This document shows, in pieces, positions 7,841 through 45,891 of a DNA stretch of 64,000 nt. The notes below the pieces were generated by a model. It searched no databases. It was given only the letters and a program-made list of their open reading frames with translations, and was not told where the DNA came from. The DNA lies in the NCBI RefSeq assembly GCF_019263745.1, contig NZ_CP077107.1, positions 186,001 through 250,000 on the forward strand. Reading direction: 5' to 3'. The position numbers and the translations under genes are program-made. This DNA is from Methanospirillum hungatei. Lineage in GTDB: Archaea; Halobacteriota; Methanomicrobia; Methanomicrobiales; Methanospirillaceae. Each line of letters begins with the position of its first letter. Position 1 is the first letter of the stretch.

Positions 7841-9379
7841 TCAGGATATCGTACTGAGATCAGAGAGATATTGATGTTTATAGGTGTGTGATTTACATGC
7901 CGGTATCAATTCGTTATCCCGCATAATGGAAATAGGACCATGACCACAGCAATAGAGCAGGTGTTTTCCTTTCTCACGAAGTGATGCGTCAATATCAGAT
8001 GCAAGTTTTGTCAGGGCTTTTCGCTCACTTTTGACGAGATCTGGATCGACATTTACTGTTGTAACCAGATATACAGCAAAATTGTTGTAAGCACTCCTCT
8101 CTGGACTAAGGTATTTCAGGTTTAAAATAGTGTCTGATGTAAAAAGAAGGCCGGCTTCTTTACAGAGTACGTAAATAAGACCATGTTGATGTCCGCCATG
8201 CCCCTCCAGGATTTGAAAGGTATATCCACCAGCAGTGAACGTAGAAAGAACAGGGAATTCTCCTTCTTTGTCTTTTCCCGCAGGTGGTAAAAGCGAAATC
8301 GAATCAGGAGTTGTCATTCGTGCAAATAAATTGATCATTACCGTATAGACCTGTTCAAGAACAAGATCCTGAGAGGTGGCACCCCATGCACGATTATTTG
8401 TTCTGATAATCTCCCAGGTCCCTTCATGGGTATAGACTGGGCAATCAAAAAATCCTGATGCACCACAGTGATCAGTATCTCCATGGGTCAGAATTATCCG
8501 TGAAAAATTTTCTTTTCCTCCAAGTCCATAATGCTTGAACATTAAAAGAACATCTTCATGATAAATTCCATATCCGGTATCGATCATGATCCGTTCCTCA
8601 GGAGTATCAATTACAAAGATGCTTCCCCCACCAGGGAGCTGAAAGCAATAGAGCGTTACAGTATCAGATATTGAGATCTTCTGGACATCTGCATAAAATC
8701 CATCTCCAGTTGTTTCTTTCAAACGTTTCCCGTTGAGGAGAATTTGTTCCAGAACATCCTGGTATTCCTTTCCATATTCAGTTAATTGTTGGGCAAGGTG
8801 ACTAAACTGATGGAGAAGTTCAAGAATATGCGGATCTTCAAGATTATCTAGAATCTCATTGACACGTGCCGCATATCTGACATAAAAGAGACTTCCGTCA
8901 TCACAACTATCTCCACAATCATAGCCTTCTATTTCAACTGCATACTCGGATCGAATTGCCTGAATTAATTCTTCGGTCCGTGAAGGTTTTCGAACCCTGA
9001 GCATGACATGCAAACGGTCAGGATATCTACCGCGGTTATCAAAAGAAAGGGAACTAATTTCTGCCTGGTAAGAGTCAAGGATGGTAAGGATTCTATGAAG
9101 TGTTCCTGGAATCTCCGGAACAATAATAGTAAACCTGATACTTCTAGGATAGGTGACTGTGGTCTGAAGATATCCTTCTTCTAATAAGGCCTGCTCTCCT
9201 TTTCTGCAATCTGATTCATCTCCAGATACAGAAAAAAATGCAGTTACGGGATCTAATGACCGGTTAAAATGGCATCGTGTTATTGTCAGTCCGGATGAAG
9301 CAATGAGCCGAACTGCATCAAGAAGAGAACCCGTATCCGGAATTCTTATTATAAAGAATTCAGTCCTGTCCGTTGGCAT
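7841..9379 (-). CDS. ACT-like tandem plus metallo-beta-lactamase fold fusion
   Basis: 512 residues. Residues 1-75 and 80-150 look like two ACT-type small-molecule sensing domains (FFIIRIPDTGSLLDAVRLIAS; FTIIVPEIPGTLHRILTILD). A helical linker follows, then from about residue 250 a metallo-beta-lactamase hydrolase: THGDTDHCG, LEGHGGHQHG, LFTSDTILN and CCGHGPI supply metal ligands. The second His of the canonical HxHxDH is Asp (HGDTDH). An amino-acid-controlled hydrolase is inferred; the substrate is unknown. It is 15 bases downstream of a small hypothetical gene, in a minus-strand run with the Mrp homologue. Confidence 0.8.
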   Translation of the reverse strand: MPTDRTEFFIIRIPDTGSLLDAVRLIASSGLTITRCHFNRSLDPVTAFFSVSGDESDCRKGEQALLEEGYLQTTVTYPRSIRFTIIVPEIPGTLHRILTILDSYQAEISSLSFDNRGRYPDRLHVMLRVRKPSRTEELIQAIRSEYAVEIEGYDCGDSCDDGSLFYVRYAARVNEILDNLEDPHILELLHQFSHLAQQLTEYGKEYQDVLEQILLNGKRLKETTGDGFYADVQKISISDTVTLYCFQLPGGGSIFVIDTPEERIMIDTGYGIYHEDVLLMFKHYGLGGKENFSRIILTHGDTDHCGASGFFDCPVYTHEGTWEIIRTNNRAWGATSQDLVLEQVYTVMINLFARMTTPDSISLLPPAGKDKEGEFPVLSTFTAGGYTFQILEGHGGHQHGLIYVLCKEAGLLFTSDTILNLKYLSPERSAYNNFAVYLVTTVNVDPDLVKSERKALTKLASDIDASLREKGKHLLYCCGHGPISIMRDNELIPACKSHTYKHQYLSDLSTIS

Positions 9380-42766: not shown

Positions 42767-43987
42767 TTAAAGATTATACGATACCCGATACACAATTCCA
42801 TTCATATCATCGGAAATAAGAAGAGAACCATCCTGAATTACCTCCACATCAACCGGTCTTCCGTACACCGTTCCGTTGTGTAACCATCCCTCGATAAATG
42901 GTTCATAAGAAACCGGAATCCCGTTTTCCCGCTGTACAATAGTTAACCGGTACCCGATAGGATCTTTCCGGTTCCAGGATCCATGTTCTGCTATGATTAT
43001 TGCATTTGTATAAGAGTCTGGAAACATTTCACCTGTATAAAATCTCATACCCAGAGAAGCTACATGGGGTCCGAGTTCTCTGGCTGGAGGAGTACAGTTT
43101 TTGCATCCGTCCGGAGACAGATCACCAAATTCCGGATCTATAATGTTACCTCCATGAAGATAGGGGTACCCAAAGAACATTTTTGGTGTGGGGGCATGAT
43201 TTAGCTCATCTGGGGGAACATTGTCTCCTAACATATCTCTTCCATTATCAGTAAACCAAAGATCACCTGTCTTTGGATCCCAGTCAAATCCAACGGTATT
43301 TCTTACACCCGAAGCAAATTTTTCAAGGCTTGTTCCATCAGGATTAATCCGGTGGATTGCAGCATAGAAATCACCAGGTGGTAGACAAATATTACAGGGT
43401 GCTCCGACCGGAATGTAGAGCTTACCATCTGGACCAAACCTGATAAATTTCCAGCCATGAGCTGTATCCTTTGGAAAACCAGCATACAAGATTTCATAAT
43501 CTGGGATATCAGGAAGAGTCATTTCTATTCCTGGAAATTTTATTATCCGGCTAATCTCTGCCACATAGAGATCGTCTTCTAGTATTGCTACTCCATTTGG
43601 CATGGTAAGATCGCTAGCAATAATGGTTCGATTCTCTGCAAAACCATCTTCATCGGAATCACGAACAGCATATACTTTGTCTTCCCTGGTTCCGATGTAG
43701 AGCGTTCTGTTTTTACTATATGAGAGAGATCGTGCACCCGGAACATGAGTTGCGTATATGTTAATGTGAAATCCATCCGGAAGAGATATTTTATCCAGGA
43801 TTTCATGATACATGTCTGGATCCATCTCAACTGCATCAGTAGGATGGATAATCAGGTTTTCATGGAAAACAGAATTTTGCATTGGAAAATCCGGATGAAA
43901 CGGAATCATCAGAACTCCTAGTAGTATTAGAATACCGAGGCAAAAGATGATTCTCGCAGGATTTGCAGACCATCCGGACATAAGCAA
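42767..43987 (-). CDS. PQQ-type glucose/sorbosone dehydrogenase-like beta-propeller
   Basis: 406 residues. An N-terminal hydrophobic segment (ARIIFCLGILILLGVLMIPF) exports or anchors it. The rest is a beta-propeller of the sugar/sorbosone dehydrogenase type: LPDGFHINIYA, GRDMLGDNVPPDELN, FGYPYLHGG, IAEHGSWNR and RPVDVEVIQDGSLLISDD. Two cysteine pairs (CNIC, CKNC) occur. Whether it uses PQQ is unknown in a methanogen; a sugar-binding or oxidase role is inferred. Confidence 0.82.
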   Translation of the reverse strand: MLMSGWSANPARIIFCLGILILLGVLMIPFHPDFPMQNSVFHENLIIHPTDAVEMDPDMYHEILDKISLPDGFHINIYATHVPGARSLSYSKNRTLYIGTREDKVYAVRDSDEDGFAENRTIIASDLTMPNGVAILEDDLYVAEISRIIKFPGIEMTLPDIPDYEILYAGFPKDTAHGWKFIRFGPDGKLYIPVGAPCNICLPPGDFYAAIHRINPDGTSLEKFASGVRNTVGFDWDPKTGDLWFTDNGRDMLGDNVPPDELNHAPTPKMFFGYPYLHGGNIIDPEFGDLSPDGCKNCTPPARELGPHVASLGMRFYTGEMFPDSYTNAIIIAEHGSWNRKDPIGYRLTIVQRENGIPVSYEPFIEGWLHNGTVYGRPVDVEVIQDGSLLISDDMNGIVYRVSYNL

Positions 43988-44748
43988 TAATGTGATTATG
44001 AGTATTTAAATTTCGGTATTTCCATGGATTTTGTCACTAACTATACTCTGAACCGGCCGGTATTCAATTATTTTGGAATTCATTGGGAAAAATAGGAGAC
44101 AGGGAATTATTAAAATCCACTCTTCAATAGTTACACACCTGATTGAAGAATGGCAGAAAAAAAGATCTATTTGCTGCACATATGAAGCGCCTGCCTCTCA
44201 ATCAAAAACCACTAAAAATCATGTAATTGGATATGTAAAATATATATTATTAGATCTATTGTAAAGCAAATTGTGTACTCATGTACCAATTCCTGAATTA
44301 CTATCATTGACCTGAGTAATATCTACGTGTAACTGCAGGATTTCCGCAATAAAGATCTAAATTCAAAAAATTATGCCTAGATATTAAATCAGAATAATAT
44401 TTAATAGCGGATTTTCTCCTCACAATGCTTCACTCTGCTTCACTTTGATGAAAAGTTGCAGCATGTCTCCATCATGGACCTGGCTCTGACCATTTTACTA
44501 CCATTATCTATGAGATAATGATATGAAAAAAAAGATCGAAAATTTAAAACCCACAAACTTGAATAACCATTGCAGAAAATCGGATGCATATTTTCTGCAG
44601 GTTTTCTGCACGTGCAGAAAATGAAAAACGGATAATTTGACTCTAAAATAGTACATGTACATATGTACACTCTTATATGATCTCATTTTCTGCAACACAT
44701 ACGCTCACGTACTGTTTTCCGAACCTGAGTTCAAGAGGTTGGATCTTT

Positions 44749-44766
44749 CATACATGTTCATGTATG
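44749..44766 (+). repeat. Inverted repeat CATACATG-TT-CATGTATG
   Basis: Eight-base arms around a two-base centre, inside the array region. A second palindromic stretch (GTACATGTAC) starts at 44651. Both could be protein sites unrelated to the TGCAGAAAA units. Confidence 0.7.
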
Positions 44767-44870
44767 AGATCATGGTTGCAGAAAATGAAATGAAAAAAAT
44801 GTATAAATCTGGTAAATATATGATCGAAGGATTTAATTAGGGCGGATCGTTGCAGAAAATAACTCATGGT

Positions 44871-44888
44871 TGCAGAAAATTTTCTGCA
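44871..44888 (+). repeat. Perfect 18-base palindrome
   Basis: TGCAGAAAATTTTCTGCA is a perfect palindrome made of two array units joined head to head. It is the likely highest-affinity site if a dimeric protein binds the array. Confidence 0.85.
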
Positions 44889-44940
44889 AATCAAACACAT
44901 GACATTATGAAGTTAAGGTCAACAATGAAATCAATCATAA

Positions 44941-44957
44941 GAACAAAAAGAATTTTT
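44941..44957 (-). terminator. T-tract after tRNA-Ser
   Basis: Read on the minus strand, TAAAAATTCTTTTTGTTC follows the tRNA 3' end within a few bases, the usual archaeal termination signal. Confidence 0.5.
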
Positions 44958-44959
44958 AA

Positions 44960-45043: not shown

Positions 45044-45144
45044 ACCTATACATGTCTGTATATCTACTTTAAAAATATATTCATCAAGTACCGATCAATA
45101 CCCGTATATTCTTTTACATTTCACCTGAAAGGAGAGGGATAATT

Positions 45145-45891
45145 CTGCACACTTCCATAACTGTAACTGGGATCAGGGGCCTTCCTCTGATTCAGAAAGG
45201 AGATAACCTTCCACGTCTGATTATCGACAAATGCGCTTTGGAAGATGGAGACATCATCTGTATCGCAAGTACCATCATATCAAAAGCGAAAGGATACACT
45301 CGGCACCTGAAAGATATCATTCCCGGTAATCGTGCAACACATATAGCAGAGAAGACTGGTGAAGATCCCCGTTTTATTCAGGTAGTCCTTGATCAGGCCT
45401 GTGATGTTCTCATTGAAACACCATTTACTCTTACTGAAGTATCATGTGGTCATGTCGGAGTCAGGTCAGGAGTAGACGCAAGCAATGTAGAAGATGGCCT
45501 GGTAATCACACTCCCCCCGGATCCCATGAATGAGGCAGAGGAGATTAGAAAAGAACTCAATAATCTCAACGGAAAAAGTTGTGGTGTCATTGTCACAGAT
45601 ACCTGTGGGAGATCATTTCGACGAGGACAGACCGGTCATGCAATCGGTTGGAGTGGGATGTCAGCAATTAGAGATTTTCGAGGAGATAATGATCTCTTTG
45701 GTCGGACACTTGAGATAACCGAAGAAGCGGTGGTTGATGAAATCGCTGGATTTGCTAATCTTGTCATGGGTGAAAGCAATAATGGGGTACCTGCTGTGCT
45801 CTTCCGAGGTATACCTGTATGGTCAGGACATGACGAGATATATTTCAAGCCTGATGAAGACATCATCAGAAAGGCATTAAAAAAAGTGTAA
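45145..45891 (+). CDS. cofE: Coenzyme F420-0:L-glutamate ligase
   Basis: 248 residues if translation begins at CTG 45145; ATT at 45142 is the alternative. Neither ATG nor GTG is available in frame, and the TTG at 45238 would cut off ITVTGIRGLPLIQKGDNLP, the conserved start of CofE. AAAGGAGAG lies 10 bases before the CTG. Other CofE motifs are present: ICIASTIISKAKG, CGHVGVRSGVDASNVE, VTDTCGRSFRRGQ and AGFANLVMGE. The enzyme adds gamma-linked glutamates to F420-0. Confidence 0.92.
   Translation: MHTSITVTGIRGLPLIQKGDNLPRLIIDKCALEDGDIICIASTIISKAKGYTRHLKDIIPGNRATHIAEKTGEDPRFIQVVLDQACDVLIETPFTLTEVSCGHVGVRSGVDASNVEDGLVITLPPDPMNEAEEIRKELNNLNGKSCGVIVTDTCGRSFRRGQTGHAIGWSGMSAIRDFRGDNDLFGRTLEITEEAVVDEIAGFANLVMGESNNGVPAVLFRGIPVWSGHDEIYFKPDEDIIRKALKKV

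Follow-up and report, generated by a model that had tools for sequence, protein, structure and literature searches.

A nine-iteron array beside tRNA-Ser in Methanospirillum is probably a gene-less copy of an iteron region inside a predicted replication-initiator gene

An array of nine short repeats beside a tRNA-Ser gene of Methanospirillum is likely to be a solo origin, having the iterons and AT-rich stretch that lie within the coding sequence of rep1, a predicted replication-initiator gene on the same chromosome, but not the gene around them. The array lies in the window, the 64-kb stretch of DNA that was analysed, which comes from a genome of a single contig of 3,393,136 bp (G000, the source genome). 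An earlier, sequence-only reading had raised three identities for the repeats: a replication iteron set, an operator array, or the remains of an integrated element. The first was the right family of ideas, with the amendment that the array copies an iteron region from inside an initiator gene and stands without that gene.

The array and its counterpart inside rep1

All nine exact copies of the word TGCAGAAAA that had been read within 318 bp, in both orientations, were recovered, each where it had been placed. The features of the locus, in window coordinates, are as follows.

42767..43987, minus strand: left-hand neighbour gene, TIGR02604-like protein (below the curated cut-off)
44136..44464, plus strand: older, decayed rep2-type module, with GTGAAGCA and TGCRGAAAA words in relatives; 71-73% identity to the flanks in G002 and G008
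44568..44896, plus strand: probable solo origin of rep1 type (iterons, dyads and AT-rich centre), colinear with a segment inside the rep1 ORF
44571..44579, plus strand: iteron 1, TGCAGAAAA, word match
44591..44599, minus strand: iteron 2, word match
44602..44621, no strand: iterons 3 (from 44602, minus) and 4 (from 44613, plus), forming the perfect 20-bp palindrome TTTTCTGCACGTGCAGAAAA
44622..44685, no strand: AT-rich centre, 72% A+T, with the TACATGTACA dyad; candidate melting region
44686..44694, minus strand: iteron 5, word match
44749..44766, no strand: imperfect dyad CATACATGTTCATGTATG
44777..44785, plus strand: iteron 6, word match
44851..44859, plus strand: iteron 7, word match
44870..44889, no strand: iterons 8 (from 44871, plus) and 9 (from 44880, minus), forming the perfect 20-bp palindrome TTGCAGAAAATTTTCTGCAA
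44959..45044, minus strand: tRNA-Ser (TGA), 3' end at 44959
45121..45891, plus strand: cofE, coenzyme F420-0:L-glutamate ligase, the conserved right-hand neighbour; start codon not settled

The word occurs 12 times in the window, against a mean of 1.02 and a maximum of 4 in dinucleotide shuffles, and its 173 copies in G000 give an expectation of 0.016 per 318 bp (Poisson P ~2e-22)—the pattern that defines an iteron origin, a short word repeated within a few hundred bp far above chance. Read backward as a control, the word has 33 copies in G000, and codon use (GCA GAA AA) may be the source of its general genome-wide excess. It is not equally dense elsewhere: among the matches listed, the sole other dense cluster lies inside the rep1 gene. 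Some details of the layout needed correction. The palindrome described at the right-hand end is indeed perfect, but spans 20 bp rather than 18 bp, and has a second perfect 20-bp counterpart in iterons 3 and 4. The array does lie in a gene-free stretch (43988-44958, 971 bp), yet fills about one third of it rather than all, another third being the older related module. It also adjoins the 3' end of tRNA-Ser, though with the last iteron 70 bp away. The high A+T content of the centre is to be read against local gene-free DNA that is AT-rich generally (68% in 44136-44464).

Used as a DNA query, the gene-free stretch returned a second site in three species (G000:C1:1757421-1757755; G002:C1:3232305-3232607; G008:C133:15600-15934), which falls within an ORF of 1068 aa, rep1. 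Aligned directly, the whole array is colinear with the rep1 segment over ~330 bp at a score of 159, where 300 shuffles reached at most 41, and the TACATGTACA dyad of the AT-rich centre aligns with an identical motif in rep1. Among 23 Rep genes of this family, the best match of the array is the rep1 of its own genome. All nine iterons of the array are perfect, as against five in rep1 itself. Because stop codons interrupt all three forward frames, the array does not code for the Rep linker, and because no Rep match is listed in the 64-kb window, with rep1 lying 1.53 Mb away in the same genome, we regard it as a solo copy and not as a complete replicon.

The tRNA-Ser locus in related genomes

The locus was found in relatives through the neighbouring cofE; they include G002, which we take to be M. 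hungatei JF-1, G008 (M. hungatei MAG M59) and G009 (M. stamsii Pt1). In four genomes the flank of tRNA-Ser aligns with an in-ORF Rep origin, the types differing. The G000 flank scores 159 with its own rep1 and 131 and 121 with the rep1 orthologues of the other two species, whereas the flanks of G002 and G008 align with the in-ORF origin of G002 rep2 (145 and 129; the G002 gene served for both, the rep2 contig of G008 ending before the linker) and that of M. stamsii aligns on the opposite strand with its own L135 rep (274); shuffles reach 37-40. The flanks of G005, G011 and G010 gave nothing clear against in-ORF origins, and neither G002 nor G008 yielded the rep1-type copy of G000 as such. The older module at 44136-44464 matches the tRNA-Ser flanks of G002 and G008 with E-values of 5e-52 and 3e-35. 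A structured-RNA search passed only tRNA-Ser, a DUF2693 RNA hit falling far below threshold. As a separate observation, the rep2 gene of G000 (L125, G000:C1:612000-626000) is split by ~3.2 kb containing long transposase-like ORFs, one of which looks IS66-type by eye, and its iterons have drifted to TGCTGCAG.

This comparison bears on the other identities proposed for the array. An operator for tRNA-Ser or for the leftward gene would fit inverted pairs of a short word placed upstream of that gene. It is nonetheless very improbable and finds no positive support, since the neighbouring genes differ between species: the TIGR02604-like gene does not adjoin tRNA-Ser in G002 or G008. The nearest iteron, moreover, lies >580 bp from the annotated start of the leftward gene, behind the tRNA 3' end, and another solo copy (1.5965 Mb) sits between convergent genes. 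Remains of an element integrated at tRNA-Ser found no support: over ~20 kb the best matches to the tRNA 3' end do not outscore shuffled tRNA, and when the 4 kb on the left of tRNA-Ser in G000 were compared with Rep-locus proteins, nothing but the origin matched, with no integrase or element genes. Other solo copies are, besides, mostly distant from tRNA genes. Inverted repeats around an AT-rich centre in gene-free DNA would also suit the chromosomal replication origin of the host, a reading that we consider extremely improbable. The array had already been judged unlike archaeal Orc1 sites, and we agree that it is not an Orc1-type origin, the orc1/cdc6 genes lying far off at 2.095 and 0.865 Mb while the array is at 0.231 Mb. 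Sampled GC skew (~16% of G000, and weak everywhere) has no switch at the array, and the array block is not conserved across the genus. With no tRNA duplication, element-gene relic, skew switch (in the sampled stretches) or nearby orc1 found, the locus supports neither a tRNA-integrated element nor the host origin.

The tRNA-Ser site of G002 (L061, ~0.961 Mb) lies ~10 kb from the point opposite the main orc1 (2.7435 Mb of 3.5447 Mb), and that of G000 ~168 kb from the equivalent point; this could reflect chance or a terminus-side position.

A family of Rep proteins with iterons in their own genes

Rep1 (1068 aa) appears to combine an AEP-type primase, an MCM-like helicase and a zinc part. Pfam, NCBIfam and PHROG gave no confident family for it, and a search of solved structures by sequence found nothing, so folds were predicted instead, on the G008 orthologue. 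The evidence for an MCM-like AAA+ fold in the predicted helicase part is strong, with a mean pLDDT of 82 and Foldseek matches to MCM chains at E 1.8e-11. The primase part was predicted at pLDDT 88; its top 30 hits are all primases, prim-pols or LigD polymerase domains, and we hold the AEP-like fold with moderate confidence because the best Foldseek E is 1.3e-3 and TM-scores are low. An alignment of Reps contains DIDP and SGNGAH motifs and a Walker A GxSGKGK; the C-terminal end of Rep1 has conserved Cys pairs and a helix-turn-helix (HTH) suggested by secondary structure only. Rep1 has the primase, AAA+ helicase, HTH and zinc finger by which arCOG07809 is described, a match made by description and lineage rather than with an arCOG profile. 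Proteins of this type, from the archaeal 'dark matter', occur in small integrated elements or satellite viruses, which they are predicted to replicate, and are associated with a PD-DEXK nuclease, arCOG09441 (PMC4158269). Many Reps here have a small gene directly upstream, which may be arCOG09441. Plasmid and phage records match only parts of Rep1, and a scan of viral contigs with the single Rep1 protein as query gave no match.

Two side observations concern the surroundings of the family. Scanned with the Rep alignment, ~90 viral contigs proved related to the primase part at 30-48% identity, mostly without a helicase match. Many Rep loci also carry, upstream or downstream, two small proteins, p175 and p206 (L086:5257-6367 and matching places), without a confident Pfam family; p175 is present at 54-80% identity in most of these loci.

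Rep matches were found in 29 of 41 genomes, with many copies per Methanospirillum genome and others elsewhere in Methanomicrobiales, and 248 stretches in the database match Rep. In most Reps examined the same linker of the ORF contains an array of iterons, a few lacking one, and each group has its own word—TGCAGAAAA in rep1 of three species, GTGAAGCA in rep2, and TGGAGAAAA, ATCTATGCA, GGGCGGGAG, GGCGGAAGT, GTCGCGGAAA and others. An 8-mer recurs at least 4 times in the linker of 45 of 73 database Reps, against 1 among control segments of the same genes, and in 50 of the 73 the linker repeats surpass codon shuffles, at a level of 1 in 100 or better. Since each Rep thus seems to carry its own target word, the family may offer a readable specificity code.

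Both the protein and the linker DNA of rep1 are constrained. Between G000, G002 and G008, dN/dS is 0.16-0.19, which indicates selection on the Rep1 protein. The synonymous rate drops about threefold in the linker: dS is 0.32-0.58 for the primase and helicase parts and falls there to 0.12-0.17, while dN is not lower; these dS and dN values are rough, the linker being short (~107 codons). Because synonymous sites are conserved in the linker, the DNA itself is constrained there, as expected for an overlapping DNA function.

Further solo copies, possible roles and known systems

Queries with other in-ORF origins revealed further solo copies—in G000 at 1.2045, 1.2066 and 1.5965 Mb, in G002 at 2.624 and 2.980 Mb, in G005 on C47 and in G008 on C229. 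Most of them are in gene-free DNA that lacks an intact Rep gene, and two have a C-terminal fragment of Rep close by. The flanks of the two G002 copies differ, but the copies have a common 557-bp unit at 85% identity; when solo copies were examined for transposon-like ends, neither terminal repeats nor duplicated targets were found. By our own tally, where the iterons of a solo copy are readable, its genome nearly always contains a cognate Rep as well; none was seen in G008 for its C229 copy, G008 being an incomplete MAG. Two loci are of separate interest. A 640-bp segment comprising the end of a malic-enzyme gene and a solo origin occurs twice in G000 (L344:6197-6836 and 8302-8941); the copies lie 2.1 kb from each other and are 79% identical, and between them stands an AAA_14/DUF4143 ATPase gene. 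In M. stamsii, tRNA-Leu (GAG) has a Rep-like gene ~270 bp away (L347, C78:170053-171620), which has an array of GGCGGAA type and whose similarity is confined to the helicase part and linker; this gene is possibly a truncated Rep adjoining a tRNA.

The array might be a neutral relic: a family element once adjoined tRNA-Ser and decayed, leaving a functionless origin. Integration has been described for elements that carry this Rep (PMC4158269), and the rep2-type module at 44136-44464 has decayed in G000, so decay does occur here. We nevertheless think a relic rather unlikely, given nine perfect iterons where rep1 has five, the lack of any other element-gene relic or attachment-site duplication, and slower change in iterons than in spacers of solo copies. 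Across 13 comparisons, identity is 94-100% for iteron bases and 72-87% for the rest of the aligned bases (p 0.013 to 4e-7), iterons being taken as exact words in one sequence and scored by the partner's agreement. Some comparisons are reciprocal or made against a coding copy, and the words were chosen after reading the sequences; the cleaner solo-solo pairs (the G002 pair, the G000 pair, G000/G008, and tRNA-Ser of G002/G008) are among those in which iterons change more slowly. For the rep2-type module, iterons and remainder are 98% and 83% identical between G002 and G008, and 86% and 76% from G002 towards G000, where rep2 is interrupted; this lower iteron conservation is in the expected direction, though weakly so. 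Several such signs suggest that solo sites are kept by selection.

If the array is a solo origin, its binding by Rep1 is strongly implied. Rep1, made 1.53 Mb away, would most likely bind the inverted TGCAGAAAA pairs; contact would probably be made by its winged-helix or zinc parts, and the inversion suggests dimers or paired domains. Rep1 might then assemble a helicase complex, an MCM-like ring that could melt the AT-rich centre between the arms, and its primase part would prime. At the tRNA-Ser site the outcome could be local replication, use by a satellite, or titration of Rep1. We tentatively give equal weight to two roles, one in which the site titrates or controls Rep and one of Rep-dependent local replication or satellite-like use; a site without a present role is less likely, and some other role less likely still. 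More broadly, and equally tentatively, Methanospirillum may house resident primase-MCM-like initiators, each with its word in its own gene, that act in trans on selected, dispersed solo origins; a mobile-element replication system would thus have been turned into a control or satellite network spanning the chromosome. For arCOG07809, until now a predicted element family, the analysis supplies a probable replication origin, gene-less copies of which persist in chromosomes with signs of selection, and initiator titration, satellite replication and trans-licensing in archaea become directly testable.

Phage lambda carries its origin iterons inside the coding sequence of the initiator gene O, in a variable linker. 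The arrangement in Reps is likewise one of iterons within a variable linker of initiator coding sequence, but the protein is unrelated, and a single genome here has many paralogues that differ in their words, besides solo copies at other places. In-gene iteron origins are known in principle from lambda; what appears to be new is the occurrence of solo origins in an archaeal primase-helicase family with many words. In open-licence literature arCOG07809 is named only in PMC4158269, whose text contains neither 'iteron' nor 'replication origin', which is not proof of novelty. The elements described there (Mpal_2033-type primase-helicase) come from the same archaeal order and have the same parts as Rep1, which has a small upstream gene as described for the associated nuclease; what differs here is the iteron array within the Rep gene and the dispersed gene-less copies (PMC4158269). 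The pRN1 protein ORF904 is also a primase-helicase-winged-helix replication protein with an origin adjoining its gene, but that origin is a 100-nt stem-loop downstream of the gene rather than iterons inside it, and its helicase is described as SF3 (PMC4234260), whereas that of Rep1 looks MCM-like in the predicted fold. In the Vibrio crtS/RctB system, too, the initiator of a replicon binds a chromosomal site away from the replicon's own origin; there, however, crtS is a single site that acts on a second chromosome (PMC5991422), whereas here there are several whole-origin copies with putative Rep binding.
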